Shown piece after piece: positions 20,701 through 46,122 of a stretch of DNA of 64,000 nucleotides; the stretch's first letter is position 1; the number at the start of each line of letters is the position of its first letter. Source of the DNA: Lacinutrix sp. MedPE-SW (lineage in GTDB: Bacteria > Bacteroidota > Bacteroidia > Flavobacteriales > Flavobacteriaceae). Under the pieces are notes generated by a model that had not been told where the DNA came from, did no database searches, and saw only the letters and a program-made list of their open reading frames with translations. A program made the translations under genes and the position numbers. The DNA is taken from contig NZ_MPCX01000011.1 of NCBI RefSeq assembly GCF_001874145.1, forward strand, positions 62,001 to 126,000. Direction: 5' to 3'.

Positions 20701-21464
20701 ACATAACCCAAACCACGAACTAAATATTCGGCTTGGTTAATTTCCAAAGTCTGTGCACCAATATCCTTGTTGCTTTCTTTAACTGCTTTTACAACGTGAT
20801 GCAATCGAATATTATATTGACGCATCAGTTCTGGATTCACATCCACTTGATATTCTTGAACATATCCACCAATAGAAGCAACCTCTGAAACACCACTTGC
20901 AGAGGACAACGCATACTTTACATAGTAATCTTGAATACTGCGTAACTCTTGCAAATCCCAACCACCAGTAACATTTCCGTTTTCGTCACGACCTTCAAGC
21001 GTGTACCAGAATATTTGTCCTAATCCTGTGGCATCGGGACCCAAAGCAGGATTAACACCTTCGGGTAATAAACCACTTGGTAAGGAATTAAGTTTTTCGA
21101 GAATACGACTTCTACTCCAGTAAAATTCGATGTCTTCTTCAAAAATGATATAGATACTTGAAAAGCCGAACATAGAAGAACTACGAATGGTTTTTACTCC
21201 CGGAATACCGAGTAAAGATGTTGTAAGTGGATAGGTGATTTGGTCTTCTATATCTTGTGGCGAACGACCATCCCATTTAGTAAATACAATTTGTTGATTT
21301 TCTCCAATATCCGGAATGGCATCAACAGCCACAGGATTACTTGGTAAGAAACCAGTGTCCCAATTAAAAGGTGCATTTACTGTTCCCCAACCTATAAAGA
21401 GAACAAGTAATAATACAGCTACGAGTTTATTTTCTATTAAAAATTTGATGCTTTTATTTAGCAT
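17712..21464 (-). CDS. cusA: CusA/CzcA-type RND heavy-metal efflux pump, enlarged form
   Basis: 1250 residues against about 1050 for E. coli CusA. It has the family N-terminus, the helix-4 motif AIAIGTMVDVGVILSEN (CusA-like GxMVD), two porter halves and the second membrane bundle. Sites aligned with the CusA methionine triad keep Met (LVMLQTGM, AVGGMV, DKMDGF), pointing to Cu+/Ag+ export. The extra length comes from about 110 residues with three or four added hydrophobic helices after AAFLFRKK and an acidic insert of about 60 residues in the periplasmic half. A GC-rich 40-bp repeat is inserted in frame at 20081-20120. The gene overlaps cusC by 4 bp. Confidence 0.93.
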   Translation of the reverse strand: MLNKSIKFLIENKLVAVLLLVLFIGWGTVNAPFNWDTGFLPSNPVAVDAIPDIGENQQIVFTKWDGRSPQDIEDQITYPLTTSLLGIPGVKTIRSSSMFGFSSIYIIFEEDIEFYWSRSRILEKLNSLPSGLLPEGVNPALGPDATGLGQIFWYTLEGRDENGNVTGGWDLQELRSIQDYYVKYALSSASGVSEVASIGGYVQEYQVDVNPELMRQYNIRLHHVVKAVKESNKDIGAQTLEINQAEYLVRGLGYVKSISDIENAVVTSEDYTSIRIKDIGKVSLGPATRRGLLDKEGAEVVGAVVVARYGANPMEVINNVKEKINELSAGLPSKVLADGRTSQVTIVPFYDRTELIQETLGTLNEALTLEILITILVIIIMVFNLRASVLISGLLPVAVLMVFIAMKLFGVDANIVALSGIAIAIGTMVDVGVILSENIIRHLDENENVIPTEQGTSDEESHKKLPINTVVYNATAEVSGAIVTAVMTTIISFIPVFTMIGAEGKLFRPLAFTKTFALTASIIVALFLIPPFAAFLFRKKNIKNTFKYVLNGVLIASGITALIYGYWLGLVLIAFGITAGLHLQNKITANQANRINIIISASAIVFLLAEYWRPLGVDKSIFWNLIFVSVICFGLLGVFSLFIKYYTRILKWCLDNKLLFLSAPTAIVIAGFFIMKNTGKEFMPSLNEGSFLLMPTSMPHSGVEENKRVLQQLDMAVASIPEIETVVGKAGRTESALDPAPLSMYENIIQYKPEYMLNENGVRQRYKVNDDGFFELKDGSLVSNPNNSENVIFSTIKRSQLIEDDDGEYYRNWRPKIESPDDIWNEIVRVTKLPGVTSAPKLQPIETRLVMLQTGMRAPMGIKVRGQDLKQIEAFGVQLEDILKQAEGVKKEAVFADRIVGKPYLLIDIDREKIARYGISIDDVQNVLKVAVGGMVLTQTVEGRERYGVRVRYPRELRANPTDLKQIYVPVEKGSPVPLNELASIRYEQGPQVIKSEDTFLIGYVLFDKMDGFAEVNVVENAQALIQEKIDSGELIVPKGINYAFTGTYENQLRAEKTLSVVVPLALAIIFLILYFQFRSVGTSLMVFTGIAVAFAGGFIMIWLYGQGWFLNFNFFGENLRDLFQMHPINLSVAVWVGFIALFGIATDDGVVMATYLTQTFDRNTPDNKKEIRASVVEAGEKRIRPCLMTTATTILALLPVLTSTGRGSDIMIPMAIPSFGGMLIALITLFVVPVLYSWKAEFQLKRTSK
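20081..20120. repeat. 40-bp GC-rich segment inside cusA, looks like a dispersed repeat
   Basis: 55% GC in an AT-rich gene. On the minus strand it begins GTCATTCCGACAGAGC and ends GACGAGGAATCTC, a form I know from intergenic dispersed repeats in Bacteroidota. Here it is in frame and adds about 13 polar residues (VIPTEQGTSDEES) to a cytoplasmic loop after helix 4. Confidence 0.6.
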
Positions 21465-32961: not shown

Positions 32962-33375
32962 TTAATGTGGCAATTTATCTCTTAATAAACCATATAAAAA
33001 CGTTCCTAAAACCGAAGCTATAATTACTATAAGTATAGGAACAAACCCAGCTCCTATTAAAGTAAACATTGGTCCTGGACAAGCTCCAGCTAAAGCCCAA
33101 CCCAAACCAAATATAATTCCTCCAAACATATAGCGACTAAAACTTTTGTTCTTTGGAAAAAAGCGTATTTCATCTCCGTAAAAGGATTTTATATTAAATC
33201 GCTTAATAGACTGCACAATTATTACTCCAACAAATAATGCAGAACCTATTATACCATACATATGAAAGGATTCAAACTTAAACATCTCATAAATTCGAAA
33301 CCAAGATGCAGCTTCAGATTTAAACATAGTAATACCAAAAAGGATACCGATAAATAAATATATTATTGTTCTCAT
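32962..33375 (-). CDS. YeeE/YedE family membrane protein (DUF6691-like)
   Basis: 137 residues with four membrane helices and the motif GLGWALAGACPGPMFTLIGAG, in which the Cys is typical of YeeE/YedE thiosulfate or sulfur-species transporters. It forms the second half of a split YeeE pair with the gene 3 nt upstream. It probably moves thiosulfate or a related sulfur compound through the inner membrane. Part of the sulfide/persulfide block. Confidence 0.85.
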   Translation of the reverse strand: MRTIIYLFIGILFGITMFKSEAASWFRIYEMFKFESFHMYGIIGSALFVGVIIVQSIKRFNIKSFYGDEIRFFPKNKSFSRYMFGGIIFGLGWALAGACPGPMFTLIGAGFVPILIVIIASVLGTFLYGLLRDKLPH

Positions 33376-33378
33376 ATC

Positions 33379-33936
33379 TTAAAATATTAAAGGGAATAAA
33401 AAATGAATCATTATAAGACCACCAATAAAAAAGCCAATTACTGCTATTAATGATGGTATTTGTAAATCACTAAGACCTGAAATAGCGTGACCTGAAGTAC
33501 AACCACCAGCATACCTTGCACCAAAGCCAACTAGAAGTCCTCCAATTGCTAATATTAGAATATTTTTAATATCTAAAATTGCTTCTGTATTAAACAATTC
33601 TGAAGGTAAATAAGCTTTTCCTGCACTATTAAAACCTAGAGTATTTAAATCTGTCACTGTATCAGGATTAATGGCAACTGCAGTATCTATTGACATAAGG
33701 TTCGATGCAATAAAACCACCAATTATTGCTCCTAAAACGACAACAAGATTCCATTTTTGAGCTTTCCAGTCAAACTTAAAAAAATCTGCCTTATTACCTG
33801 CTCCACATATAGTACACATAGTTCTAAGGTTAGAAGACATTCCAAAATTTTTGCCTACCATAATTAGTAAAAACATTATAAAGGCAATCATTGGGCCAGA
33901 TATATACCATGGCCAAGGTTCATAAATCCAATTCAT
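33379..33936 (-). CDS. YeeE/YedE family sulfur transporter
   Basis: 185 residues, about five membrane helices. It has GARYAGGCTSGHAISGLSDL, the characteristic Cys motif of YeeE/YedE proteins, and an extra TMCTICGAGNK with two Cys near residue 40. In YeeE such Cys residues relay thiosulfate. First gene of the unit; a GTAAC-N4-GTTAC site ends 45 nt before its ATG. Confidence 0.87.
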   Translation of the reverse strand: MNWIYEPWPWYISGPMIAFIMFLLIMVGKNFGMSSNLRTMCTICGAGNKADFFKFDWKAQKWNLVVVLGAIIGGFIASNLMSIDTAVAINPDTVTDLNTLGFNSAGKAYLPSELFNTEAILDIKNILILAIGGLLVGFGARYAGGCTSGHAISGLSDLQIPSLIAVIGFFIGGLIMIHFLFPLIF

Positions 33937-33981
33937 CTATTTAATTTTTTACAAAGGAATGCGGTTTTTTAGACTATTTTG

Positions 33982-33995
33982 GTAACATTAGTTAC
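33982..33995. promoter_or_regulatory. GTAAC-N4-GTTAC site, YeeE operon
   Basis: Palindrome GTAACattaGTTAC followed by an A-rich flank; 45 nt separate it from the start at 33936. One of eight in this block; candidate Crp/Fnr-family binding site. Confidence 0.75.
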
Positions 33996-34135
33996 AAACA
34001 TCAAAATTAATGATCATTAATACAGTTTTGAGACTATGTATTTTAATCTATCATAGTAAAATAATCTAGCTATATGTAGTTTAAATGTGGTTTTATGCAA
34101 TAGACTAAATAATTTATTTACAGCATATTTTAGAA

Positions 34136-35173
34136 TTAATAACTAGTATCGTCTAATTTAACTTTACCGTGAAACGTTTTATATAAGAATAAAAAATAAC
34201 CTGCTAGAAGTGGTGCTCCAATGAGTACAATGGTTAGCATTATTCCTAATGATTTTTGAGATGATGCAGCATTGTAAATAGTTACACTATATTCTGGGTC
34301 TATAGTAGAAGGCAAAAACACTGGATATAACTGAAATGCGACTAACATTAATAAAAATGCCATAGTTAATGATGAAAATATAAGCGCATTACCATACTTT
34401 TTTTTAGACACCAATCGAGGCACGTTTGCTACTGCTAAAAAAGCTAAAATTGGAAGCACAAAGAATACAGGAAACTCTTTAAATTTATCTGTAACTCCTG
34501 GTAGGAAAATTAAAGTGTACATTGATGTTAAAGAGAAACTAACAATAAAAAATATCATTCCTTTTTTTAGCAAAAAAGTTAACCTAGCATGTAAGCGACC
34601 TTCAGTCTTTAATAGTAAAAAAATTGCTCCTTGCGTCATAAATAACGACACAGTTGTTAGACCAACCATTATAGCATAAGGATTTAGGAATGAAAAGAAC
34701 ATACCACCTTTATAACTGTAATTTTCTCCAATTTCAAAACCTTGTAATAAATTAGCTAAAACAACTCCTAATAAAAATGATATTAATGTATTTGAAACAA
34801 AATAGATAATGTCCCAAGTTTTACGCCACCATAACATGGTTTCTGCACTTCTAAATTTTATAGCTGCAGATCTTAAAACAAGTAGCATTAAAAATAACAT
34901 AAATGGAATGTACATTGCAGATAGCATTGTAGCATACATTACAGGAAAACCTGCAAACAATGCACCTCCACCAATTATCAACCACACTTGGTTTGCATCC
35001 CAAAGCGGGCCAATTGCATTAATTGCAATACGCCTACTTAAATCTTTTCTAAAAAACAAATGCCAAGAACCTGCACCATAATCAAAGCCTTCTAAAATTG
35101 CATAACCAGAGAATAATAAACCAACTACTAAATACCATAAGGTTGGGTAATCTATACCTAAAAATGTTTCCAT
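34136..35173 (-). CDS. cydB: cytochrome bd oxidase subunit II
   Basis: 345 residues with eight or nine membrane helices and the CydB features GYAILEGFDYGAGSWHLFF and WDANQVWLIIGGGALFAGFP. It partners CydA (9 nt upstream) in the quinol oxidase of the inner membrane. Cytochrome bd resists sulfide, which blocks haem-copper oxidases, so its place among sulfide genes makes sense. Confidence 0.96.
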   Translation of the reverse strand: METFLGIDYPTLWYLVVGLLFSGYAILEGFDYGAGSWHLFFRKDLSRRIAINAIGPLWDANQVWLIIGGGALFAGFPVMYATMLSAMYIPFMLFLMLLVLRSAAIKFRSAETMLWWRKTWDIIYFVSNTLISFLLGVVLANLLQGFEIGENYSYKGGMFFSFLNPYAIMVGLTTVSLFMTQGAIFLLLKTEGRLHARLTFLLKKGMIFFIVSFSLTSMYTLIFLPGVTDKFKEFPVFFVLPILAFLAVANVPRLVSKKKYGNALIFSSLTMAFLLMLVAFQLYPVFLPSTIDPEYSVTIYNAASSQKSLGIMLTIVLIGAPLLAGYFLFLYKTFHGKVKLDDTSY

Positions 35174-35182
35174 AACTTTATA

Positions 35183-36538
35183 TTAAACGTATTTTAAAAA
35201 TTCATCTGGATTTTTAGCTTCGTCATAAGGTCCATGTTTTATTTTTTTATTTACTGAATAAAGAAATAAAAGAAATAGAATACTGTACACCACTAAAAAC
35301 AGGATTAATGAAAATAATATTTGGTTAGAAGAAACCTCTTGAGAAAAGCCTTCGTTTGTTCTTAAATGACCATAAACAATCCACGGTTGTCTACCCATTT
35401 CTGCAGCAAACCAACCTACTTGATTTGCAATTTGAGGCAATAGCACTGAAAACGCAAAAATTTTAAGTAGCCATTTTTTATCAAACAATGTGCCTCGCCA
35501 CCATAAATAACTAGCATATAAAGTTAACCCGATTAAAAACATACCTATAGAAATCATTATATGATAAAACTGAAATACTGCATTTACTTGTCCCGGCCTA
35601 TCTTCTTTTGGAAAACTATTTAATCCTGTAATTGGCTCATCGAAATCTTGATGAACTAAAAACGATAATCCGCCAGGTAATTTTAAACCTGTAACTTCTT
35701 GTGTTTCGTCATTTACCCAACCAAATAAATACAAATCTGCAGGTGCAGATTTTTCATAATGGCCTTCCATTGCTGCTAATTTTGCTGGTTGATTTACAGC
35801 AACACCATCTGCAGAACTATGCCCAGAAAGTAATTGAGTTAAAGATATAATTGTTGCTAAACCTAATGCTATTTTAAATGCTTTTTTAGAAATTTCTATA
35901 TACCTTCCTTTTAGCAAATAATACGCATGTACACTTAACACTAAAAACGCACCTGCTAGAAAAGCGCCTTGCCAAACATGAATAATTCTATCTACACTTG
36001 AAGGATTAAAAACCATTGCCCAAAAATCTGTAACTTCTGCTCTAGCATTAAAACCTTCTCCAACAATATGATAACCAGCTGGTGTTTGCTGCCAACTATT
36101 AGCTACAACAATCCAAACTGCCGAAAACATAGACCCTAAAAAGACTCCAATTGTTGAAATAAAATGCACTTTGGGAGATACTCTATTCCAACCAAAAATT
36201 AAGATTCCTAAGAAAGCGCTTTCTAAACCAAAAGCAAACAAACCTTCTGCTGCTAATGCACTACCAAAAATATCACCAACATACCTAGAGTACACAGCCC
36301 AATTGGTTCCAAACTCGAACTCCATAATAATTCCTGTGGCAACACCAATACCAAAAGTTATTGCGAAAATTTTAAGCCAAAAACGGGTTAAAATCTCATA
36401 GTGTTTATTTCCTGTTTTTAAATACAAGCCTTCCATTATTACCATAATTAACCCAATACCAATACTTAATGGTGGATAGATATAGTGAAAAGCGATAGTG
36501 AAGGCAAATTGGATTCTGGCTAGAATTTCTGTATCCAT
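35183..36538 (-). CDS. cydA: cytochrome bd oxidase subunit I
   Basis: 451 residues, multi-spanning, with the haem b595 His in TIAFHYIYPP, the quinol loop and GRQPW (EMGRQPWIVYGHLRT) essential for the family. The Q-loop is of the short type. It oxidises menaquinol and reduces O2 to water. First gene of cydAB; a GTAAC-N4-GTTAC site ends 50 nt before its ATG. Confidence 0.97.
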   Translation of the reverse strand: MDTEILARIQFAFTIAFHYIYPPLSIGIGLIMVIMEGLYLKTGNKHYEILTRFWLKIFAITFGIGVATGIIMEFEFGTNWAVYSRYVGDIFGSALAAEGLFAFGLESAFLGILIFGWNRVSPKVHFISTIGVFLGSMFSAVWIVVANSWQQTPAGYHIVGEGFNARAEVTDFWAMVFNPSSVDRIIHVWQGAFLAGAFLVLSVHAYYLLKGRYIEISKKAFKIALGLATIISLTQLLSGHSSADGVAVNQPAKLAAMEGHYEKSAPADLYLFGWVNDETQEVTGLKLPGGLSFLVHQDFDEPITGLNSFPKEDRPGQVNAVFQFYHIMISIGMFLIGLTLYASYLWWRGTLFDKKWLLKIFAFSVLLPQIANQVGWFAAEMGRQPWIVYGHLRTNEGFSQEVSSNQILFSLILFLVVYSILFLLFLYSVNKKIKHGPYDEAKNPDEFLKYV

Positions 36539-36588
36539 AGATGTGAAGTTTTGTATTACAAAAATAATAACAAACGCTATTTTTTTAG

Positions 36589-36602
36589 GTAACTTTTGTT
36601 AC
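36589..36602. promoter_or_regulatory. GTAAC-N4-GTTAC site, cydAB
   Basis: GTAACttttGTTAC, 50 nt before the cydA start. Same motif and spacing as at the other units of the block. Confidence 0.75.
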
Positions 36603-36646
36603 ATAATAACCGCTTATTATAAAATATAAATTAATATTATAAAAAA

Positions 36647-36674
36647 ATCCCTTCTATATATCATAAAAGGGATT
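36647..36674 (-). terminator. terminator after the first persulfide dioxygenase gene
   Basis: On the minus strand AATCCCTT/AAGGGATT arms followed by a run of seven T. It separates this unit from cydAB. Confidence 0.85.
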
Positions 36675-36745
36675 ATAAAAATTTTAGAAATAATCAAATT
36701 TCAATTTTGGGAAGAAAAACTTTCGAATCTATAAATTTTATAATA

Positions 36746-38077
36746 TTAGTTTTTAAAATCGTTAATATTATCGCTTAAATCGTATACCGTTACATTTTTA
36801 AGAGCCTTTTGTAAAATGCTACTTCCAGCTGCACTTCTATAACCACCAGCGCAATGCACAACTATTGGCTTACTCGTTTCAATATCGCTAGCTGTTTTTC
36901 TTAAATCATTTAATGGATGTGATTTTGCAGACTCGAAAAACGCTTCTTCTTCAACTTCGCTAGTATTACGTATATCTATAATTGTATAATGATTTGGATT
37001 TTGTTTAAAATCTGCCAAATCAAGACTTGGTGTTTTTTCTAAGCCATTATTAGCTAAGGTTATAATTTTTATTAGTTGTTTTTCGTAACCAATTTTCGCA
37101 ACTCTTTGCAAAATATAATCAACCTCATCTTTAGAGTTTATAACTAGTGTAAATTGTTCTTCAGGTTGTACAATAGATCCTAACCAGGTTTCAAATTTTG
37201 CGTTTTCTGAAACTGCTTGAATGTTTACACTACCAAGTAGATGTCCTTTTTTAAAAGTTGCTTCGTCTCTAATATCTATAATTAAACCTGAAGCTGAAGT
37301 TTCTTCTTCAAAAGCAATAGAATTTATGGCTGTTTCTAAATTTTCTGCTCCTGCTTTATTTGTATCTACATCGAAACCAAAGTATGATGGTATAAATGGT
37401 TGACCTTCTAAAATGGTATCCATAAACACTTGCTTTGTTTGGGTTTTAAATGCCCAATTACCCATTCTTTCATTTTCTAAAGTACTACTTGCAGCATCAC
37501 TTAAATTTTTACCGCATAATGAACCTGCTCCATGCGCTGGATATACTATAGCATCGTCTGGTAAATCTTTAAATTTTGTTGTTACTGTTTCAAACATCAT
37601 TTCTGCAAGTTCTTCTCGCTTAGCTTTCATATTTCCAGCTTTTTCTCTTAAATCTGGTCTACCTACATCGCCAATAAAAAGTGTATCTCCTGTAAAAAGC
37701 GCTGTATCATCATTTTCTGTTGCAACTATTGTAATACTATCTGGAGAATGACCAGGTGTATTTAATGCTTTAAGTCTAGCATTTCCTATTTTAATATGGT
37801 CGCCATCATCAAAAGTTTTATGTGGATAATCTGCTCCTAATTTTTCGCTATTGTATATTGTTGCTCCCGTTTCTTTATGAATTTGTAAATGAGAGCTTAC
37901 AAAATCTGCATGTGGATGTGTTTCTATTACTGCAATAATTTTAGCATTATTTTCTTTTGCAAATTTGTAGTATGCTTCTGGGTTTCTTTCTGGGTCTACA
38001 ATAGCCATTTCACCATTACTTACAATAGCATAAGAATAGTGAGCTAATGGTTTATATTCAAATTGTTTAATATTCAT
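36746..38077 (-). CDS. persulfide dioxygenase-like MBL protein with two rhodanese domains
   Basis: 443 residues. Residues 1-240 form an ETHE1-type metallo-beta-lactamase domain with ETHPHADFVSSH, NTPGHSPDS and TGDTLFIGDVGRPDL, the iron-binding residues of persulfide dioxygenases. Two rhodanese domains follow. The first (about 255-345) has no active-site Cys, the second (about 350-443) has HCAGGYRSA with an intact Cys. Likely role: oxidising glutathione- or low-molecular-weight persulfide to sulfite and shuffling sulfane sulfur. It is 78 bp after the peroxiredoxin gene and ends with a strong terminator. Confidence 0.9.
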   Translation of the reverse strand: MNIKQFEYKPLAHYSYAIVSNGEMAIVDPERNPEAYYKFAKENNAKIIAVIETHPHADFVSSHLQIHKETGATIYNSEKLGADYPHKTFDDGDHIKIGNARLKALNTPGHSPDSITIVATENDDTALFTGDTLFIGDVGRPDLREKAGNMKAKREELAEMMFETVTTKFKDLPDDAIVYPAHGAGSLCGKNLSDAASSTLENERMGNWAFKTQTKQVFMDTILEGQPFIPSYFGFDVDTNKAGAENLETAINSIAFEEETSASGLIIDIRDEATFKKGHLLGSVNIQAVSENAKFETWLGSIVQPEEQFTLVINSKDEVDYILQRVAKIGYEKQLIKIITLANNGLEKTPSLDLADFKQNPNHYTIIDIRNTSEVEEEAFFESAKSHPLNDLRKTASDIETSKPIVVHCAGGYRSAAGSSILQKALKNVTVYDLSDNINDFKN

Positions 38078-38155
38078 GATATTGTTTTTTAAGGTTAATT
38101 AAATTGGGCTTTAAGTATTGCTATTTAAAGCCCTTATAATATTTAAAATTTATTT

Positions 38156-38821
38156 TTAAATATTCTTTTTTGCCAAATACCAAGTTACTTTTTCTACAGA
38201 GTCGTCTGCTAAACGTTTGTTTAAAGCATCTAAAGATTTTGGCGCACCACAAATAACTTTGTCGCCTCTTTGCCAGTCTAAAGGCATTGCAACTTTATGC
38301 TTATCTGATGTTTGTAAAGCATCTAAAGATCTTAAAATTTCGTCCATGTTTCTTCCAACGTTTAATGGATAATACATTACTAATCTTATTTTTTTAGATG
38401 GATCTATAAAGAAAACCGCTCTAACTGCAGCTGTTTCACTTTCGTTAGGCTGTAACATACCATAAAGCTTAGAGACTTTCATATCGATATCTGCAATAAT
38501 TGGAAAATCGAAATAAACGCCTGTAGTTTCTCTAACATTTTGTACCCAACCTAAATGCGCGTGAATACTATCTATACTTAAACCTAAAAGCTCTGTATTT
38601 AAAGCATCAAACTCTGGTTTACGTTCTGCAAATCCGCTCATTTCTGTTGTACAAACTGGAGTAAAATCTGCTGGGTGAGAAAACATTACAATCCATTTGT
38701 CTTTAGCAAATTCTGACATTTTAATGTTTCCTTTTGTAGTTACTGCTTGAAAATCTGGTGCGATATCTCCAATTCTTGGCATTGATACAGGTTGTTCTGT
38801 TATTAAAGTTTCGTTACTCAT
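38156..38821 (-). CDS. 1-Cys peroxiredoxin, Prx6 type
   Basis: 221 residues with the peroxidatic Cys57 in SHPADFTPVCTTEM and a long C-terminal extension (DWQRGDKVICGAP) typical of the Prx6 group. It reduces hydrogen peroxide or organic peroxides and, in sulfide contexts, may also deal with reactive sulfur species. A GTAAC-N4-GTTAC site ends 64 nt upstream. The following MBL-rhodanese gene has no such site of its own and may be read from here through a weak hairpin (GGGCTTTAA/TTAAAGCCC near 38107-38133). Confidence 0.92.
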   Translation of the reverse strand: MSNETLITEQPVSMPRIGDIAPDFQAVTTKGNIKMSEFAKDKWIVMFSHPADFTPVCTTEMSGFAERKPEFDALNTELLGLSIDSIHAHLGWVQNVRETTGVYFDFPIIADIDMKVSKLYGMLQPNESETAAVRAVFFIDPSKKIRLVMYYPLNVGRNMDEILRSLDALQTSDKHKVAMPLDWQRGDKVICGAPKSLDALNKRLADDSVEKVTWYLAKKNI

Positions 38822-38885
38822 AATAATTAAAATTTATTGATTTATTAATATTTTATAAATTTAAACTATAACAGAGGCATCAACA

Positions 38886-38899
38886 GTAACCTTAGTTAC
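38886..38899. promoter_or_regulatory. GTAAC-N4-GTTAC site, peroxiredoxin unit
   Basis: GTAACcttaGTTAC followed by ACAAC, 64 nt before the start at 38821. Confidence 0.75.
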
Positions 38900-38951
38900 A
38901 CAACATGTATTTTTTTTAAAATATGGAAAAAAACTTTATTTAAAGAATAAA

Positions 38952-38983
38952 AAATGGGTAAAACATTGATGTATTACCCATTT
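38952..38983 (-). terminator. terminator of the sulfide:quinone oxidoreductase gene
   Basis: Minus strand AAATGGGTAA/TTACCCATTT hairpin followed by T-rich DNA, 14 nt after the stop. Confidence 0.82.
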
Positions 38984-38997
38984 AAAATATTTATAAT

Positions 38998-40305
38998 CTA
39001 AACATTTTTTCCTTTTAACATTTTATGCCAATATAAATAAGGAAGCATATATTTTTTAAGCATCCATAATCTCCAATGCTCTTTAGAACTATCACTAATT
39101 AACAATTGTTTTAATTTTGGATCTGGAGTAAATTTTCCTTCATAATCAAATTCTGCTAAAACCATTTTACCATAGTCCGTAACTAATGGACATGAAGAAT
39201 ATCCATTATAAGACATTGTACCCATTTTATTGTGGTTTATTAAAAGCTCTAAATTATCTACAACAATAGGTACTTGTTTACGTATCGCTGCACCCGTTTT
39301 TGCTGTTGGTAATGCTGCCACATCTCCTAAACCAAAAATATTTGCATATTTATTGTGTTGCATAGTGTGATGATCTACATCTAACCAACCTGCATCATTA
39401 ACCAAATTTGATTCTTTTACAAATTTTGGAGCGACAGATGGTGGCGCAGTATGTAACATATCGTAGTGTATACCATATAAACCATCTTTAATTGTAACTT
39501 TTACGTCTTTATAGTTATACTGAAACGCTTCATCTAAATAATTTTCATCATCTTCACCAGACATAATTACGCAACCACCAGCTTTTATATCTTTTGTTAG
39601 TTGGTACCAGGCAATTTTTTTTGCGCCATCAACTTTAACTAATTTATGATGAAATCTTAGATTAATATCTTTTCTATCTACTACTTCCATTAAGGTTTTG
39701 GCTATTGGCTTAACACCAAAAATAACACTTCCTCCGGTGGCAAAAACTATATCTGATTTACTTTTAACGCCTGTTTTTTTAAAATGATTTTCGGCTAAAT
39801 ACATTATTTTCTGTGGAGCTCCACCGCATTTTATTGGTGTTGTAGGCTGTGTAAATAAAGCTGTACCACCTTTAAAGTTTTTTATGACATCCCAAGTGTG
39901 TTTTGGATCTGTATAATTACTACATACAACGCCTTTATCCATTGCTTCACCCAAACCAGGAACCAAGCTAAAATCGTATGCTAAACCTGGAGCTACAACT
40001 AAATAATCGTAGGTAATATTACCTTTACTTTCTGTAAAAACCGTATTGTTTTCTGCATCAAAACCTTTTGCTCTATCTTTAATCCAAGTTGCTCCACTTG
40101 GTATTACATCTAACATTGGTTTTGCTGTTTTATCAAAATTATAAGTTCCAGCACCAACCAAAGTCCATGCAGGTTGGTAATAATGTGTATCTGCCGGTTC
40201 TATAATTGCTATGCTATATGATTTTTTCTTTTCAAGAAGTTGGGCTGCTGTCATTATTCCTGCAGTTCCACCTCCAATAATCAAGATTTGATAATGTGAT
40301 GCCAT
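38998..40305 (-). CDS. sqr: sulfide:quinone oxidoreductase, type II
   Basis: 435 residues. FAD-binding GGGTAG at 11-16, substrate region IKCGGAPQKIMYL with Cys160 and YSSCPLVTDYGK with Cys372. These match the two redox cysteines of the mitochondrial-type (type II) SQR, as does the C-terminal segment MLPYLYWHKMLKGK. It oxidises H2S to sulfane sulfur and passes electrons to menaquinone, feeding the bd oxidase encoded nearby; the persulfide goes to the dioxygenase and rhodaneses. A GTAAC-N4-GTTAC site ends 55 nt upstream. Confidence 0.95.
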   Translation of the reverse strand: MASHYQILIIGGGTAGIMTAAQLLEKKKSYSIAIIEPADTHYYQPAWTLVGAGTYNFDKTAKPMLDVIPSGATWIKDRAKGFDAENNTVFTESKGNITYDYLVVAPGLAYDFSLVPGLGEAMDKGVVCSNYTDPKHTWDVIKNFKGGTALFTQPTTPIKCGGAPQKIMYLAENHFKKTGVKSKSDIVFATGGSVIFGVKPIAKTLMEVVDRKDINLRFHHKLVKVDGAKKIAWYQLTKDIKAGGCVIMSGEDDENYLDEAFQYNYKDVKVTIKDGLYGIHYDMLHTAPPSVAPKFVKESNLVNDAGWLDVDHHTMQHNKYANIFGLGDVAALPTAKTGAAIRKQVPIVVDNLELLINHNKMGTMSYNGYSSCPLVTDYGKMVLAEFDYEGKFTPDPKLKQLLISDSSKEHWRLWMLKKYMLPYLYWHKMLKGKNV

Positions 40306-40360
40306 TTCTTTTAGTTATTTATTAATTTCATAAAATTAAGGTAAATAAAATATGATTAAT

Positions 40361-40374
40361 GTAACATGAGTTAC
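40361..40374. promoter_or_regulatory. GTAAC-N4-GTTAC site, sqr
   Basis: GTAACatgaGTTAC followed by ATAAG, 55 nt before the start at 40305. Confidence 0.75.
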
Positions 40375-40399
40375 ATAAGACTACATTTTTAATTAAGTA

Positions 40400-40927
40400 T
40401 TACAATTTTAAACCAACGCCTAAGCCAAAATTCCAAGTATTATAACCATCGAATCGTTTGTCTAAAAATAAAGTAGGTAATAAATAAAAGGATTCACTTA
40501 TATCTTTTTCGTATTCTATACCAAACCTTAGTAGCCAATAAGATTCTTCTTTTTCTAATTCTACTCCTGGACCTATAGTTAATACAAAACCATTACCAAA
40601 TTGGTGCAATACATCTAATGTTAAAACCAATGGGTTTACTCTTTCTACAGCTTCACTATTAGAATTTCGAATAATAAAGGTTTCTATTTCAATATCGTTA
40701 TGCAAACCAATTCCCCAATTATGATTAAACCAATATTCAAAATCCAATCCCCAAGAAGGAACGAATACATTTTTAGCTCCTTCATTATTAATTAGTGTAT
40801 GACCAATAATTCCTGCTATTCTAAATCCATTACCTTCATTATGCGTTTCAATTATGTTATTATGTTCTTGAGCATTTATTTTAAATACAATTAAAATTAA
40901 AAACAATGAGATTCTAATCTGTTTCAT
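40400..40927 (-). CDS. small outer-membrane beta-barrel protein
   Basis: 175 residues with a signal peptide (cleavage near NAQEHN) and alternating aromatic/polar strands ending with LGVGLKL, typical of an eight-strand outer-membrane barrel. No closer family recognised. It is 1 nt after the DUF2490 gene and belongs to the three-gene unit headed by the HMA protein. The link to sulfur metabolism is by position only. Confidence 0.7.
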   Translation of the reverse strand: MKQIRISLFLILIVFKINAQEHNNIIETHNEGNGFRIAGIIGHTLINNEGAKNVFVPSWGLDFEYWFNHNWGIGLHNDIEIETFIIRNSNSEAVERVNPLVLTLDVLHQFGNGFVLTIGPGVELEKEESYWLLRFGIEYEKDISESFYLLPTLFLDKRFDGYNTWNFGLGVGLKL

Positions 40928-40928
40928 T

Positions 40929-41654
40929 TTACAAATTATAAGTTATTGTGGTTTCCCAAATTTTATTATTTATTAAAAAATTAGTTCTGTATGCGTGTAT
41001 TTCGTGATAACCCGTTTTTATATTTATATGATTATTAGCATTAAAACTAACACCTAAGAACATCCAATTTTGATCTAAGTTTTTAGGCTTTAAACCATTT
41101 TCTAAGTCTAGATGAACCTCATCATAAACAACTACATGAATTTTATGACTGGCGTTAAACTTTATTGGAACTAAAATTTGAAATTTATATCTAAAACGAT
41201 TTTTATAATTATTACCTTTTAAGCTATATGAATTGAAGTCGTTTTCAATTACTTTCCCTATAAAACGCTCTTCTAAACGAAATCTATGTATAAATGAAAA
41301 TCTTGAAAATTTTTGTTTTGTAGTTAATTGCTGAAAAATATTATTTTCAACTACATCAATTGGTATACTATAAGTTGAATAATTATAATTTTTTATAAAA
41401 CTGTACCCAAATGCAATATCTAAATTTGATGAAATTCTATAATGCACAAAAGGCCTAACGATAAATTGCTCCCAGCTTTTTAAAAAATTTGTGCGCCTCA
41501 AATTAAACTCAGTATTTACAAACCAATTATTATTAATCTTTTTGCTGAAATTTATAGTATTCCAACTACTATAATGTGTTTGTTTTTCTTGTGCTTTAGT
41601 GTAGAAAACAAAAGTTAATACTAGAATTAAGCATACATGTTTTTTGTGTTTCAA
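40929..41654 (-). CDS. DUF2490 outer-membrane protein
   Basis: 241 residues with a signal peptide (FYTKAQEKQ) and repeated amphipathic strands (FVNTEFNLRRTNFLKSWEQF, FSFIHRFRLEERFIG), ending in a beta signal YNL. This is the DUF2490 pattern, common in Bacteroidota, of unknown function. It lies 4 nt after the HMA gene. Confidence 0.8.
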   Translation of the reverse strand: MKHKKHVCLILVLTFVFYTKAQEKQTHYSSWNTINFSKKINNNWFVNTEFNLRRTNFLKSWEQFIVRPFVHYRISSNLDIAFGYSFIKNYNYSTYSIPIDVVENNIFQQLTTKQKFSRFSFIHRFRLEERFIGKVIENDFNSYSLKGNNYKNRFRYKFQILVPIKFNASHKIHVVVYDEVHLDLENGLKPKNLDQNWMFLGVSFNANNHINIKTGYHEIHAYRTNFLINNKIWETTITYNL

Positions 41655-41658
41655 TGCT

Positions 41659-41928
41659 TTATTTTTTTAGTTTTCCTGAAGCACAACTAATAAATGATTT
41701 TGTTTTGGAATGTAGCCCATTTTGGTCTTCGATAGATGGATAGCCTAACGATTTTAATTTGCTTTTTACTATAAAAGCATCATCGGAATTAAGTGTTCTA
41801 AAAGAAACTGTTGATGTGTCTTTATCTACCGTGACATTTGATATATTTTTAATTGAAGAAAGTTTATCAATTATGGTATTTACACAACCGCCACATTTTA
41901 AATTTTGAACTATAATACTGCTTTTCAT
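41659..41928 (-). CDS. HMA-domain metal-binding protein
   Basis: 89 residues. One HMA domain with LKCGGCVNTIIDKL as Cys-x-x-Cys site and a short tail ending SCASGKLKK with another Cys. It resembles soluble copper chaperones. In this block it may bind copper displaced by sulfide or carry a sulfane sulfur; unproven. First gene of a three-gene unit with a GTAAC-N4-GTTAC site 50 nt upstream. Confidence 0.82.
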   Translation of the reverse strand: MKSSIIVQNLKCGGCVNTIIDKLSSIKNISNVTVDKDTSTVSFRTLNSDDAFIVKSKLKSLGYPSIEDQNGLHSKTKSFISCASGKLKK

Positions 41929-41978
41929 ATCTATATTATTTACTTAAAGCAAGATAATATATAGTGCTAAAAACCGCA

Positions 41979-41992
41979 GTAACATTAGTTAC
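41979..41992. promoter_or_regulatory. GTAAC-N4-GTTAC site, HMA unit
   Basis: GTAACattaGTTAC followed by ACAGA, 50 nt before the start at 41928. Confidence 0.75.
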
Positions 41993-42012
41993 ACAGAAGC
42001 GGTATTAAAAAC

Positions 42013-42042
42013 AAAAGAGGTTGTATTTAAACAACCTCTTTT
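42013..42042 (-). terminator. terminator after the rhodanese gene
   Basis: AAAAGAGGTTGT/ACAACCTCTTTT perfect arms. On the minus strand it ends the transcript of the MBL-rhodanese and rhodanese genes. Confidence 0.8.
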
Positions 42043-42084
42043 CTATTAACCAACCACTAAGAAAACCAATTTATATCACGATTA

Positions 42085-42402
42085 TTATTTTGGACTAACT
42101 GTTTTTCCTGTCCAATCTAAAATGCCGCCAGATAAATTGTACGTTTCATTTACATTTATATTTTCTAATAATTCGCAAGCTTGACTACTACGTTTACCAC
42201 TTCTGCAGTACACATAGTAATTTTTATTCTTGTCTAGTTTTTTAATTTCAGCATCAAATTCTTCAGTATCTAAAACATTAATTAGTAAAGCATTTTCTAT
42301 AATACCTTCTGCCCATTCTTTAGGTGTTCTTACATCTAGTATAATAGCGTTTTCATCTTTAGCAATCGATTTTTGCCACTGTTCTTGATCTATATTTTTC
42401 AT
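42085..42402 (-). CDS. single-domain rhodanese
   Basis: 105 residues from the ATG at 42402 (MKNIDQEQWQKSIAKDENA). The frame is open further to 42480, but that start would overlap the upstream gene by 68 bp and add a non-homologous stretch. The active loop is YCRSGKRSSQA with the catalytic Cys. It moves sulfane sulfur between thiols in the cytoplasm. It lies 10 nt after the MBL-rhodanese gene. Confidence 0.9.
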   Translation of the reverse strand: MKNIDQEQWQKSIAKDENAIILDVRTPKEWAEGIIENALLINVLDTEEFDAEIKKLDKNKNYYVYCRSGKRSSQACELLENINVNETYNLSGGILDWTGKTVSPK

Positions 42403-42412
42403 TTCTATTTTT

Positions 42413-43822
42413 TTAAAGTGTTGTTGGACAAACAAATTCTGAAACATTAACTCCAGACTCTTTAATGGCTTTAAAACCACCTTTTACATCTACTAAATTA
42501 TGAATTCCTCGGCTTTTAAGTATTGAAGCAGCAATCATACTTCTATATCCACCAGCACAATGCACATAAAATGAAGTGTTTTCTGGAAATTCTGACAAAT
42601 AATTGTTTAAGAAATCTAATGGCGTATTATTAGCATTGATAACATGTTCTGAAAGGTATTCACTTTCTTTACGCACATCGAATACTGGTTTCTTTTCTGC
42701 TTCTAATTCACTTTTAAATTGCTCTGCAGTTATAGAACTTACTGCATCATACTCCATAGATGCTTTTTTCCAAGCATTAAAACCGCCTTCTAAATACCCA
42801 AGTGTATTGTCGAAACCAACTCTAGATAATCTTGTTACCGCTTCTTCTTCTCTTCCTGGCTCTGTGACTAATAAAATTGGTTGTTTTACATCTGCTATTA
42901 AAGCGCCAACCCATGGTGCAAAGCCACCATCTAAACCAATAAATATTGACCTAGGTATGTGACCTTGAGCAAAATCGTCTTGATGACGAACATCTAATAC
43001 TATCGCTCCTGTTTCGTTTGCTGCAGCTTCAAAGGCTTTTGGAGATAAAGCTTGAGTTCCTCTTTTTAAAACCTCTTCAATATCATCGTAACCTTCTTTA
43101 TTAAGTTTTACATTAGCAGGAAAATATTGCGGTGGTGGCAAAAGGCCATCTATAACTTCTTCAATAAATTCTTCTTTAGTCATATCTGCACGAAGTGCAT
43201 AATTCATTTGCTTTTGATTGCCCAACGTATCTACCGTTTCTTTCATCATATTCTTCCCGCAGGCAGAACCAGCTCCATGAGCAGGATAAACTATAACATC
43301 GTTTTCAAGAGGCATTATTTTTTCTCTTAAGCTATCGAAAAGAAAACCTGCTAAATCTTTTTCTGTTAAAACACCCATTTTTTGCGCTAAATCTGGTCTT
43401 CCAACATCACCTAAAAAAAGTGTATCTCCACTAAATATAGCATGATCTTTACCATTTTCGTCTCGTAATAAATATGTAGTACTTTCCATGGTATGACCTG
43501 GTGTGTGCAAAGCAATAATAGTTACGTTACCTAATTTAAACTCTTGACCATCTTTAGCTATAACGGCTTCAAAAGAAGGTTTTGCATTAGGACCATAAAT
43601 TATTGGTGCTCCAGTTTCTTTTGCTAAGGTTACATGACCACTAACAAAATCTGCATGAAAATGTGTTTCGAAAATATATTTAATTTTTGCATCGTCGAGT
43701 TTGGCTCTATTTATATAAGGCTTTACCTCTCTTAAAGGATCGATAATAGCAACTTCACCATTACTCTCAATATAGTATGCGCCTTGTGCAAGGCAACCTG
43801 TATAAATTTGTTCAACGTTCAT
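42413..43822 (-). CDS. persulfide dioxygenase-rhodanese fusion
   Basis: 469 residues. The ETHE1-type MBL domain (about 1-245) contains ETHFHADFVSGH, HTPGHTMES and SGDTLFLGDVGRPDL. A first rhodanese domain (about 255-360) lacks the Cys (its loop reads VTEPGREEEA); the second (about 365-469) has HCAGGYRSM with Cys. It is a paralogue of the protein at 36746, differing in detail, so the block has two such enzymes. Likely converts persulfide to sulfite, which TauE/SafE then exports. A GTAAC-N4-GTTAC site ends 55 nt upstream. Confidence 0.92.
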   Translation of the reverse strand: MNVEQIYTGCLAQGAYYIESNGEVAIIDPLREVKPYINRAKLDDAKIKYIFETHFHADFVSGHVTLAKETGAPIIYGPNAKPSFEAVIAKDGQEFKLGNVTIIALHTPGHTMESTTYLLRDENGKDHAIFSGDTLFLGDVGRPDLAQKMGVLTEKDLAGFLFDSLREKIMPLENDVIVYPAHGAGSACGKNMMKETVDTLGNQKQMNYALRADMTKEEFIEEVIDGLLPPPQYFPANVKLNKEGYDDIEEVLKRGTQALSPKAFEAAANETGAIVLDVRHQDDFAQGHIPRSIFIGLDGGFAPWVGALIADVKQPILLVTEPGREEEAVTRLSRVGFDNTLGYLEGGFNAWKKASMEYDAVSSITAEQFKSELEAEKKPVFDVRKESEYLSEHVINANNTPLDFLNNYLSEFPENTSFYVHCAGGYRSMIAASILKSRGIHNLVDVKGGFKAIKESGVNVSEFVCPTTL

Positions 43823-43877
43823 TTTTATTATTTTTAATTTGTTATTGTAAAACTAAATAGACTTTAGCTATAATGCA

Positions 43878-43891
43878 GTAACCTAGGTTAC
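43878..43891. promoter_or_regulatory. GTAAC-N4-GTTAC site, MBL-rhodanese unit
   Basis: GTAACctagGTTAC, fully self-complementary including the spacer, followed by ACAAC; 55 nt before the start at 43822. Confidence 0.78.
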
Positions 43892-43943
43892 ACAACTAAA
43901 AAAACTCTTGTTGTTTAAAGAAAATTTATGATATTTCTATTTT

Positions 43944-44747
43944 TTACTCTACAAAAAATTCCATGTAAAAAATAAATATTGCCATTACAAATATGAAATA
44001 GCCAAATCCTTTTTTTAGTTTAGTGCCATCTATAAAATTACTTAAATAGCTACCAATAAATATTCCTACAAAAGAAATACCTGTAAAAATTGCCAAGAAA
44101 ACCCAATCGATATCCATTGTTAAAGCGTCACCTAAAAAGAATCCTAGTAGAGATTTAAATGCGATAATTATTAATGATGTACCAACAGCAACTTTCATTT
44201 TTACATTTGCAAGAATTACTAAAGCTGGAATTATTAAAAATCCACCACCAGCACCAATTAAACCTGTTATTCCTCCAACAACTAAACCTTCTATAATAAT
44301 TAAAGGATAATTGTATTTTACTTTTCCTGTTTGGAGTTTTTCTTCTCTTTTTTTAAGCATTGAAAATGCAGCTGGAATCATTAAAAGAGCAAATAAACCA
44401 AACATTGCCATTCTACGTGTAAAATCAAAATCTCCTATAGTAAATAAAACATCTGGTAGTGCTGGTACGACATAACGTCTAATTGCACTTACACCTATAA
44501 TTGCAGGCAAACCAAATACAATTGCAGTACGCCAATCTACATATCCTTTAAAATGCTGTTTTATACCTCCTAGCAATGCACTTGCGCCTACTATAAATAA
44601 CGAATATGCTGTGGCTACTTTTTCGTTTACTGAAAATAAATAAGCTAAAACTGGTACTGCCAATATAGAACCACCACCACCAATAAGACCTAACGATATA
44701 CCAATAATAAGTGCACTGATATAGCCAAAAATTTCTAAAATTCCCAT
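43944..44747 (-). CDS. TauE/SafE family sulfite exporter
   Basis: 267 residues, eight membrane helices with the twofold Gly-rich motifs IGGGGSILAVPVLAYLF and IGAGGGFLIIPALVIL of TauE/SafE proteins. It likely exports sulfite or sulfonates from the cytoplasm, the product of the persulfide dioxygenases. It has its own GTAAC-N4-GTTAC site 52 nt upstream. Confidence 0.9.
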   Translation of the reverse strand: MGILEIFGYISALIIGISLGLIGGGGSILAVPVLAYLFSVNEKVATAYSLFIVGASALLGGIKQHFKGYVDWRTAIVFGLPAIIGVSAIRRYVVPALPDVLFTIGDFDFTRRMAMFGLFALLMIPAAFSMLKKREEKLQTGKVKYNYPLIIIEGLVVGGITGLIGAGGGFLIIPALVILANVKMKVAVGTSLIIIAFKSLLGFFLGDALTMDIDWVFLAIFTGISFVGIFIGSYLSNFIDGTKLKKGFGYFIFVMAIFIFYMEFFVE

Positions 44748-44799
44748 ACTTTAATATTCTTATATATCGCGAAAGTAAATGGTCTTAAGTTAATTTGAA

Positions 44800-44813
44800 G
44801 TAACCTGAGTTAC
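44800..44813. promoter_or_regulatory. GTAAC-N4-GTTAC site, TauE/SafE
   Basis: GTAACctgaGTTAC followed by ACAAC, 52 nt before the start at 44747 and only 7 nt from the regulator gene stop. Confidence 0.75.
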
Positions 44814-44820
44814 ACAACTA

Positions 44821-45453
44821 TTATAAATTTATAATTTCTATATAATTTCTATGAAGTTTAATATTACCTAAATTTTCTAATTTCTTTAACAATCTAGAAA
44901 TCACAACTCTAGAGCTATGCAAATCGTAAGCAATTTCTTGATGTGTACTTTCTATAACTTTAGATTTTGTAATTCTTGCTTTTTCTTTTAAGTAATCTAA
45001 AAGTCTTTGATCCATATTATTAAAAGCAATACTATCCAGAGTATGTAGCATTTCGTTTAAACGATTGTGGTAACTTTCAAATACAAAATTTCTCCAAGAT
45101 TTGTATTTAGAGGTCCAAATTTCCATTTTTTGAATTGGAATCATTATTAAAGTTGCATCTGTTTCTGCAATTGCCCTAATTTCACTTTTAGTTTGCCCCA
45201 TACAACAGGTCATTGTCATAGAACAGGTGTCTCCTTTTTCTAAATAATATAAAAGAAGTTCGTCTCCATCTTTATCTTCCCTAAGAACTTTTATAGCTCC
45301 CGAAAGCAATAAGGGCATACCTTTAACGTAAGAACCAATATCCATTAATTTAAATCCTGCTGGCACATCCTTATAAGTCCCAACTTGGATAATTTCATTA
45401 ATAAGCTCTTCTTCAAAAAGGCTTCCATAACTATTTTTTAGCTCTTGAATCAT
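44821..45453 (-). CDS. Crp/Fnr-family regulator with Cys cluster, likely master of the sulfide block
   Basis: 210 residues. Cyclic-nucleotide-binding-like fold (about 15-125), dimer helix, and winged HTH (about 155-210). The sensor domain has Cys77, Cys83 and Cys84 (CSMTMTCCMG), not the FNR N-terminal Cys set. The recognition helix reads HSSRVVISRLLKKLE: Val183 stands where CRP has Glu181, so target DNA should differ from TGTGA or TTGAT boxes. That fits the eight GTAAC-N4-GTTAC sites around it. It may sense sulfide or persulfide through Cys; direct evidence is lacking. Confidence 0.85.
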   Translation of the reverse strand: MIQELKNSYGSLFEEELINEIIQVGTYKDVPAGFKLMDIGSYVKGMPLLLSGAIKVLREDKDGDELLLYYLEKGDTCSMTMTCCMGQTKSEIRAIAETDATLIMIPIQKMEIWTSKYKSWRNFVFESYHNRLNEMLHTLDSIAFNNMDQRLLDYLKEKARITKSKVIESTHQEIAYDLHSSRVVISRLLKKLENLGNIKLHRNYIEIINL

Positions 45454-45586
45454 CTTTTACATTTATTAGTAATTGTTAACTGCATTTTACCGTAATTAAT
45501 TAATATAGTTACCCGATAATTTTATTATTTTAAATGGTAGTTATTGTAATTTAATGTAAAAATAATAGAATAGAAAATTGCGATTG

Positions 45587-45600
45587 GTAACATTAGTTAC
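45587..45600. promoter_or_regulatory. GTAAC-N4-GTTAC site, regulator gene
   Basis: GTAACattaGTTAC, 133 nt before the regulator ATG at 45453. The greater distance may mean a long leader or a different, perhaps repressive, geometry for self-control. Confidence 0.65.
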
Positions 45601-45693: not shown

Positions 45694-46122
45694 TTATTCG
45701 TCTAAAAGCAAATTTAATGTTACTGTTATATTATCTCTAGTTGCTTTACTAAATGGACAAACTTCGTGTGCTTTTTCTACTAAACTTTCTCCTGTTTCTA
45801 AATCTACACCTGGTATGTAACAATCTAATGTAGCTTCTAAACAGAAACCATCTTCATCTTTACAAAACCCTATAATAGCCGTTACACTTAAAGCCTCTTC
45901 GTCTATATCTATATTTTCTGCATTTGCAACAGATTGTAATGCTCCACCAAAACATGCAGCATAAGCAGCTCCAAAAAACTGTTCAGGATTTGCACCGTTG
46001 CCGCCATCGCCGCCCATAGATTTTGGCACAGAAAGATTAAAATCTAACGGTCCGTCTTCAGATTTTACATTACCTTTTCTTCCTCCTATAGCTGTTGTTG
46101 TTGCTTCATATAATGTTTTCAT
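45694..46122 (-). CDS. ohr: organic hydroperoxide resistance protein, Ohr subfamily of OsmC
   Basis: 142 residues with both catalytic cysteines in context: Cys57 in GAAYAACFGGAL and Cys122 in EVCPFSKATR. Ohr reduces organic hydroperoxides with lipoylated proteins as electron source, and Ohr/OsmC proteins can also handle sulfane sulfur. It is leftward, just upstream of the sulfide block, but has no GTAAC-N4-GTTAC site before it, so I place it outside that regulon. Confidence 0.92.
   Translation of the reverse strand: MKTLYEATTTAIGGRKGNVKSEDGPLDFNLSVPKSMGGDGGNGANPEQFFGAAYAACFGGALQSVANAENIDIDEEALSVTAIIGFCKDEDGFCLEATLDCYIPGVDLETGESLVEKAHEVCPFSKATRDNITVTLNLLLDE

Follow-up and report, generated by a model that had tools for sequence, protein, structure and literature searches.

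In the parts of the literature available to us, genes for sulfide and persulfide are controlled through conserved cysteines by FisR, CstR, SqrR/BigR, and YgaV, which belong to the Fis/sigma-54, CsoR, and ArsR families; FisR is described as an activator with three conserved cysteines (PMC9774590). The word Fnr is absent from the available text of that review, Crp occurs there in two Shewanella references alone, and we found no described CRP/FNR regulator of a Bacteroidota sulfide regulon in it or in the accessible parts of the open-access literature. In sediment treated with NaHS, sqr transcripts rise, Bacteroidota ones included (PMC12345210), and the accessible part of that paper contains neither the word regulator nor Crp. 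As described in part of PMC3898017, the cyanobacterial regulator NtcA uses a GTA-N8-TAC operator centered near -41.5, which in the ilvG example lies 22 nt before the -10 box. Here we analyze a 64,000-nucleotide stretch of the genome of Lacinutrix sp. MedPE-SW (contig NZ_MPCX01000011.1, positions 62,001 to 126,000; hereafter the window), in which a cluster of sulfur genes and the gene of a CRP/FNR-family protein (hereafter the regulator) carry copies of the palindrome GTAAC-N4-GTTAC. We conclude that one CRP-family protein very probably switches on genes for the oxidation and disposal of sulfide and reactive sulfur from near-identical promoter switches. This conclusion is based on the motif, the promoter geometry, conservation, gene content, and co-occurrence with the regulator. 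A class II regulon of the CRP family is of a known kind; sulfide as its subject appears to be new.

The exact palindrome occurs eight times within 33982-45600, where 0.06 copies are expected in the 64-kb window, and none of 100 shuffles of the window reached eight. Each copy lies where the original prediction, made by a model from the sequence alone, had placed it, and the spacing that it gave also holds: seven sites stand 45-64 nt before a start codon (in order, 45, 50, 64, 55, 50, 55, and 52 nt from the ATG for operators 1-7) and that of the regulator 133 nt. Its claim that the window contains no other copy is correct for exact palindromes; with one mismatch allowed, a single extra palindrome appears at 20005, within the open reading frame (ORF) 17712-21464. 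Its description of the right flank as nearly always ACA was overstated, as ACA occurs at four of the eight sites and the constant pattern is A-N-A (8/8). The operators, with the associated promoter boxes and the genes that they precede (MBL, metallo-beta-lactamase), are as follows.

33982-33995, minus strand: operator 1, YeeE pair; -7-like box TTCCTTTG at 33952-33959
36589-36602, minus strand: operator 2, cydAB; -7 box TATTTTTG at 36559-36566
38886-38899, minus strand: operator 3, peroxiredoxin and probably also MBL-rhodanese fusion 1 behind it; -7 box TAAATTTA at 38856-38863
40361-40374, minus strand: operator 4, sqr; -7 box TAATTTTA at 40331-40338
41979-41992, minus strand: operator 5, HMA/DUF2490 unit; -7-like box TATCTTGC at 41949-41956
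43878-43891, minus strand: operator 6, MBL-rhodanese fusion 2 and rhodanese; -7 box TAGTTTTA at 43848-43855
44800-44813, minus strand: operator 7, TauE; -7-like box TACTTTCG at 44770-44777
45587-45600, minus strand: operator 8, the regulator's own gene; -7 box TATTTTTA at 45557-45564, predicted leader of ~100 nt

The strongest feature of these sites, absent from the original prediction, is a fixed distance to the promoter box. On the gene strand, all eight sites have a -7-like box that begins at offset 36, counted from the palindrome's first base, which leaves a gap of 22 nt; the box reads TAnnTTT at five of them and T...TT at all eight, and TAnnTTT was found at no other offset between 14 and 59 at the eight window sites. 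In the mapped transcriptome of Flavobacterium psychrophilum, TAnnTTTG spans -12 to -5 (PMC9723704, in the part available to us), which, given the fixed box distance, places the palindrome center at -41.5. This would be the position of a class II activator, and the eight promoters have the features of an activator-dependent promoter of that class, namely, a site near -41.5 and a fixed distance to the -10/-7 box, with start sites predicted from the box. The constant spacing to the ATG can be explained by the fixed promoter geometry and short leaders; the regulator gene is the sole one of the eight with a long predicted leader (~100 nt).

These operators resemble those of NtcA in that GTAAC-N4-GTTAC is itself a GTA-N8-TAC sequence, in their predicted location near -41.5, and, for the ilvG example, in the 22-nt gap to the box. 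In an alignment, the recognition helix of NtcA has R-V in place of CRP R180-E181, and the Val is shared with the regulator. NtcA differs in its signal (2-oxoglutarate), its nitrogen-gene targets, and its -10 box, and the regulator scores 34 bits against an NtcA model with a cut-off of 244.95. NtcA and the regulator thus appear to apply the same operator logic in distant members of one family.

Over the whole genome (3.04 Mb) there are 15 exact palindromes, compared to 7 for a reversed control pattern. Of the seven outside the cluster, five fall in coding ORFs, the sixth lies in a hairpin-like repeat, and the seventh precedes a DUF983 gene. When the palindrome is combined at the fixed distance with a relaxed box (TNNNTT, picked after inspection of the eight sites), the genome has eight matches, exactly those of the cluster, and the reversed control has none. 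A genome-wide scan, the first check named in the original prediction, thus finds the promoter form confined to the cluster rather than scattered. The DUF983 gene (L015:1030-1434 in our numbering of loci, contig C20 near 158.6 kb) has its palindrome 66 nt from the ATG and TAACTTTG at offset 35, 1 base short of the usual 36. It is probably a ninth member of the regulon, outside the window, because DUF983 is the third commonest family behind such sites in relatives (24/287). The recurrence of DUF983 behind the operator in relatives offers a clue to what this family does.

The genes of the cluster (32962-45453) all lie on the minus strand, and the names first given to them agree with comparisons to Pfam, NCBIfam, and PDB.

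32962-33375, minus strand: YeeE/DUF6691 half-transporter b (Pfam-type domain match)
33379-33936, minus strand: YeeE-type sulfur transporter half a (PF04143; weak PDB matches to YeeE/TsuA)
34136-35173, minus strand: cydB, cytochrome bd oxidase subunit II (family model match)
35183-36538, minus strand: cydA, cytochrome bd oxidase subunit I (family model match)
36746-38077, minus strand: MBL-rhodanese fusion 1, persulfide dioxygenase-sulfurtransferase type (domains, PDB matches, motifs)
38156-38821, minus strand: peroxiredoxin (AhpC-TSA with 1-cysPrx_C)
38998-40305, minus strand: sqr, sulfide:quinone oxidoreductase (SQR; best PDB sequence match, human mitochondrial SQR)
40400-40927, minus strand: small protein without a Pfam family, gene 3 of the HMA unit
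40929-41654, minus strand: DUF2490 protein of the HMA unit (domain match)
41659-41928, minus strand: HMA-domain protein with CGGC (domain match and motif)
42085-42480, minus strand: single-domain rhodanese (domain match; the true start is probably internal to the ORF)
42413-43822, minus strand: MBL fused to two rhodanese domains, fusion 2 (domains, PDB matches, motifs)
43944-44747, minus strand: TauE/SafE sulfite exporter family (domain match)
44821-45453, minus strand: CRP/FNR-family regulator, 210 aa, with a cyclic-nucleotide-binding (cNMP) fold, HTH_Crp_2, Cys77/Cys83/Cys84, and recognition helix SSRVVISRLLKK

The sqr product is homologous to characterized SQR (6.6e-101 to the human enzyme in PDB); against the model of type III SQR, a selenoprotein subtype, it reaches 224 bits, under the cut-off of 525. 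Both MBL-rhodanese fusions retain HxHADF, GDTLF, and CAGGYR, and their PDB matches are the solved MBL-rhodanese structures 3tp9 and 3r2u and ETHE1. With MBL metal-site histidines and the active Cys of rhodanese, both appear to be of the persulfide dioxygenase-rhodanese type. They resemble the persulfide dioxygenases ETHE1/BpPRF in domains and best PDB matches, and their activity is predicted.

The regulator matches PF00027 and PF13545 above the cut-offs, which makes it a member of the CRP/FNR superfamily. An AlphaFold2 monomer model (predicted local distance difference test, 88.6) has a fold that matches structures of CAP, FNR, HcpR (the Porphyromonas gingivalis protein), NtcA, and DNR. In this model Cys83 and Cys84 lie in a short helix (78-86) and Cys77 directly ahead of it. 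Among 81 regulator sequences, Cys77 and Cys83 are invariant (81/81) and Cys84 nearly so (80/81), as are Met79 (80/81) and, to a lesser degree, Lys89 (74/81). Invariant in the DNA-binding domain are Thr170-His171, Ser181-Arg-Val-Val184, and Ser186-Arg-Leu188, which give the pattern SRVV-[IV]-SRL. Three further HTH_Crp_2 proteins are encoded in the genome, and their recognition helices differ by eye.

E. coli CRP shares with the regulator the fold of the model, and its operators are like those described here in half-site spacing (TGTxA-N6-TxACA) and in the class II position. In a two-sequence alignment, the regulator has Val183 at Glu181 and Met79 and Lys89 at E72 and R82, and its three cysteines fall in the region of the phosphate-binding cassette. 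The half-site is TGTAA and not the TGTGA of CRP. As E72 and R82 are contacts of cyclic AMP (cAMP) in CRP, and as the regulator obtains 45.9 of the 266 bits asked for by the CRP model, we reject its identity as a cAMP-dependent CRP. An FNR oxygen sensor binds its 4Fe-4S cluster through four cysteines, of which three are N-terminal; these ligands are absent from the regulator because its sole cysteines are 77, 83, and 84, none of them N-terminal, and that identity is rejected also. The residues of CRP that contact bases are, according to the available part of PMC12531629, Arg180, Glu181, and Arg185.

A search for the regulator family (E up to 1e-3, distant kin included) in 249 genomes of the bacterial family found it in 219. 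Around the regulator we chose 80 named loci, the best 80 of 123, among which the nearest relative has a regulator of 87% identity (an uncultured Aquimarina) and which also take in Maribacter, Cellulophaga, Salegentibacter, Tenacibaculum, and others. These loci hold 241 palindromes; five of the 80 (several Salinimicrobium among them) and two contigs of metagenome-assembled genomes have no palindrome or are too short to judge. Reading each of the 241 sites in both orientations gives 482 readings, of which 200 have TAnnTTT at offset 36; the other offsets from 14 to 89 have 0-10. The strict full promoter occurs in 181 of the 249 genomes, and its reversed control gives 12 matches in 10 genomes (a hand count of the table). 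It is present in 178 of 219 genomes with the regulator versus 3 of 30 without it (Fisher p 1.4e-14), the three having one match apiece; genome size may explain part of this co-occurrence, because many of the regulator-less genomes are small or incomplete. The original prediction had named conservation in relatives as a test, and the motif is indeed kept with the same genes and tracks the regulator. Further loci were chosen by hand from among the matches listed, in sets of 20 (low identity), 40 (distance or family spread), and 60 (distance or family spread).

Target genes were counted behind sites with GT[AG]AC half-sites and a T[AT]nnTT box in the window, the 80 named loci, and 20 unnamed loci; 295 sites were taken initially, of which 8 had no ORF, leaving 287. 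The first genes are MBL-rhodanese or rhodanese (87), TauE (49), DUF983 (24), SQR (19), peroxiredoxin (16), fatty-acid-hydroxylase-like (13; representative L079:11675-12547), the regulator (9), YgaP-type membrane protein (8), cydA (7), SulP (7), YeeE (6), DUF4386-like (5), SorA/SorT-like sulfite dehydrogenase (4), TsdA/SoxA-like cytochrome c (3), HemN (3), outer-membrane efflux protein (3), and others fewer. Groups absent from the window were named from one representative each, and the SorA/SorT-like and DUF4386-like matches fall under the family cut-offs. A less biased sample comprised 30 genome-wide sites, one per genome, from the 181 genomes with a match (one, L153, was already in the 287-site set); none of the 30 lies inside a gene, and 23 precede a gene family already seen. 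The outer-membrane efflux protein accounts for nine of them (L132-L134, L137, L140, L144, L145, L150, and L158). Five stretches were chosen for the efflux operon and two read: at both loci a pair of genes comes after the efflux gene. Their sizes, and at the one translated locus also their appearance, point to a membrane-fusion protein and an RND pump. At L251 the genes after the efflux gene are membrane-fusion and RND-like. In relatives, then, the operator also precedes sulfite-dehydrogenase-like, SulP, and fatty-acid-hydroxylase-like genes and an efflux operon, which extends the earlier list of targets.

Substitutions at Glu181 of CRP alter the base that is recognized, and related regulators carry either Val or Glu at the corresponding residue 183. 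Operators were called as GTRA[CT]-N4-[GA]TYAC with a box at offset 36, a criterion widened after the upstream regions of four genomes had been read side by side, and were classed by their A- or G-type half-sites. The first comparison set aside 20 sites of Val-type loci with another half-site and kept apart three loci with both regulator types, and the scoring by majority omits loci without sites or with ties. The 21 Glu-type loci have 1 AA, 16 AG, and 5 GG sites, and the 116 Val-type loci have 257 AA, 21 AG, and 12 GG. By locus, Glu-type gives 15 G-major, 1 A-major, and 5 without sites; Val-type gives 87 A-major, 6 G-major, 1 tie, and 22 without. With the criterion unchanged, 60 new loci across the class gave 10 G-major, 1 A-major, and 13 without sites for Glu and 16 A-major, 2 G-major, 2 ties, and 16 without for Val (Fisher 3e-5, with relatedness ignored). 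In this set also the box at offset 36 stands out (39, compared to 10 at offset 37 and 0-4 at others). On trees built without the helix columns, residue 183 changes 4 and 7 times; the supported independent pairs number 2 and 4, of which on average 1.6 and 3.7 agree and 0.0 disagree (p 0.5 and 0.125). The association of Val with TGTAA and of Glu with TGTGA half-sites is repeated yet not established as causal.

At the three loci with both types, the Glu-type gene has the three AG sites on its downstream side (no more than 25 nt away at L051 and L095, ~0.6 kb at L083), and the nine AA sites stand before the usual targets, DUF983 (3), MBL-rhodanese (3), SulP, YeeE, and SQR. Seventeen of the 22 sites at Glu-type loci precede members of these same target families: TauE (5), MBL-rhodanese or rhodanese (7), YgaP-type (2), SQR (1), fatty-acid-hydroxylase-like (1), and an efflux protein (1). 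A search for exact palindromes found no common one at Glu-type loci, because their sites mostly pair two unlike half-sites. Close kin of one Glu-type paralog occur in 2 of 199 genomes. L220 and L244 have Glu-type regulators that carry the Cys triad; the gene that follows the site there begins, by eye, like an OsmC-family protein. Symmetrical GTGAC-N4-GTCAC sites, twelve in all and each preceding an MBL-rhodanese or rhodanese gene, were noted at L058, L060-L062, L065-L070, L080, and L161 (Maribacter and others), where the Val-type regulator is the sole type found; they may be bound by a Glu-type paralog encoded at another place in the same genomes.

We consider it likely that the local CRP/FNR protein is a class II activator of a sulfide/persulfide regulon that includes its own gene and that its signal is sensed by thiols. 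Sulfide or its oxidation products, on rising, would cause thiol chemistry at Cys77, Cys83, and Cys84, in the region of the effector pocket, and so bring the regulator into its DNA-binding form. A dimer would then bind TGTAAC-N4-GTTAC, whose center at -41.5 lies a short way upstream of the sigma-A -7 box, and recruit RNA polymerase. The predicted joint output is SQR, two MBL-rhodanese proteins, rhodanese, the TauE exporter, the YeeE transporter, peroxiredoxin, and the bd oxidase. We hold with high confidence that the regulator binds and activates at the eight sites. Sulfur sensing is the weakest step and one that we favor only by some margin over its negation; the gene list argues for either sulfide or persulfide as the signal, and the near-invariant cysteines of the pocket region point to a thiol switch like that of FisR. 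The original proposal, in which the local Crp/Fnr protein activates a sulfide/persulfide regulon from about -40, is thus supported, with signal and activation as its predicted parts. Cys77 is constant in the 81 sequences, in the distant set (40/40, read by eye), and in the class-wide set (60/60), where all three cysteines occur in 42 of 60 regulators. A broader proposal, which we put forward tentatively and at slightly less than even chance, is that a CRP/FNR family found across Bacteroidota senses persulfide or polysulfide directly via Cys77, often aided by Cys83/Cys84, at the place where CRP binds cAMP, and that residue 183 has switched repeatedly with the operator.

Several observations weigh against these proposals. 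The presence of the Cys triad predicts sulfur neighbors poorly: classes with one Cys lie in sulfur clusters at 5 of 20 loci, and MBL-rhodanese accompanies 5 of 8 two-Cys Glu-type relatives and 0 of 6 with the triad (these six have SQR in 2, rhodanese in 2, and TauE in 1). The GTGAC half occurs in 33 of the 290 A- or G-type sites at Val-type loci, 22 of these 116 loci have no site, and the link between residue and operator falls short of significance after correction for the tree (4 supported pairs, p 0.125). The 287-site counts favor neighboring sulfur genes because the loci surround the regulator; in the 30-site sample, the commonest target is the efflux protein (9/30), and 7 of 30 have no known family. 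The DUF983, fatty-acid-hydroxylase-like, HemN, and DUF4386 targets have no obvious sulfur role.

Of the alternatives, the one that survives best has the same regulator and operators respond to low oxygen, nitric oxide, or general redox or copper stress, in the manner of DNR, HcpR, or FNR, with sulfur genes as one output of several. The proteins matched in fold include FNR, DNR, and P. gingivalis HcpR, and the targets include the bd oxidase, HemN, the HMA protein of the window, peroxiredoxin, and the efflux operon. We nevertheless regard such a signal as improbable: the MBL-rhodanese, TauE, and SQR groups account for 155 of the 287 first genes near the regulator, the targets also include sulfite-dehydrogenase-like, TsdA/SoxA-like, and SulP genes, and the ligands of the FNR cluster are absent, none of the three cysteines being N-terminal. 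It is very unlikely that another protein binds the palindromes or that the local protein represses, so that the CRP/FNR gene would be a mere neighbor or act in the opposite direction. The genome does encode three other HTH_Crp_2 proteins, and binding by the local regulator is a prediction, but those proteins differ in the recognition helix by eye, -41.5 is the position of a class II activator (as for NtcA), site presence tracks the regulator across 249 genomes, and the operators are altered at loci with Glu-type regulators. Finally, although the seven other exact copies in the genome equal the number in the reversed control, we reject as having next to no probability a chance or compositional origin of the palindromes as nonoperators, given the 0.06 copies expected in the window, the box distance fixed at 8/8 sites, conservation across genera, and the genome-wide promoter pattern.

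The analysis yields a named candidate regulator, an operator whose promoter geometry is fixed, and a list of targets predictable across many genomes. If regulation by this protein is as we propose, the CRP/FNR family joins the known persulfide-responsive regulators, and Bacteroidota genetics gains a natural inducible promoter. The Val/Glu operator switch offers a test case for joint change of a recognition helix and its operators. Direct sensing by cysteine, if true, would define a new class of persulfide sensor, and a repeated joint switch of residue 183 and operator would make the regulatory code of sulfide detoxification readable from genomes across the phylum.

Adjoining the sulfur cluster is a metal-efflux block (window 12695-32696) with genes for CusB/HlyD-type, cation efflux, and outer-membrane proteins, an RND pump, a P-type ATPase, a Fur-like regulator, and a TonB receptor, followed by DUF5906, helix-turn-helix, and tyrosine integrase genes; the region is possibly an integrative element bearing metal resistance. 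Upstream of the regulator, the window contains an Ohr/OsmC gene (45694-46122).

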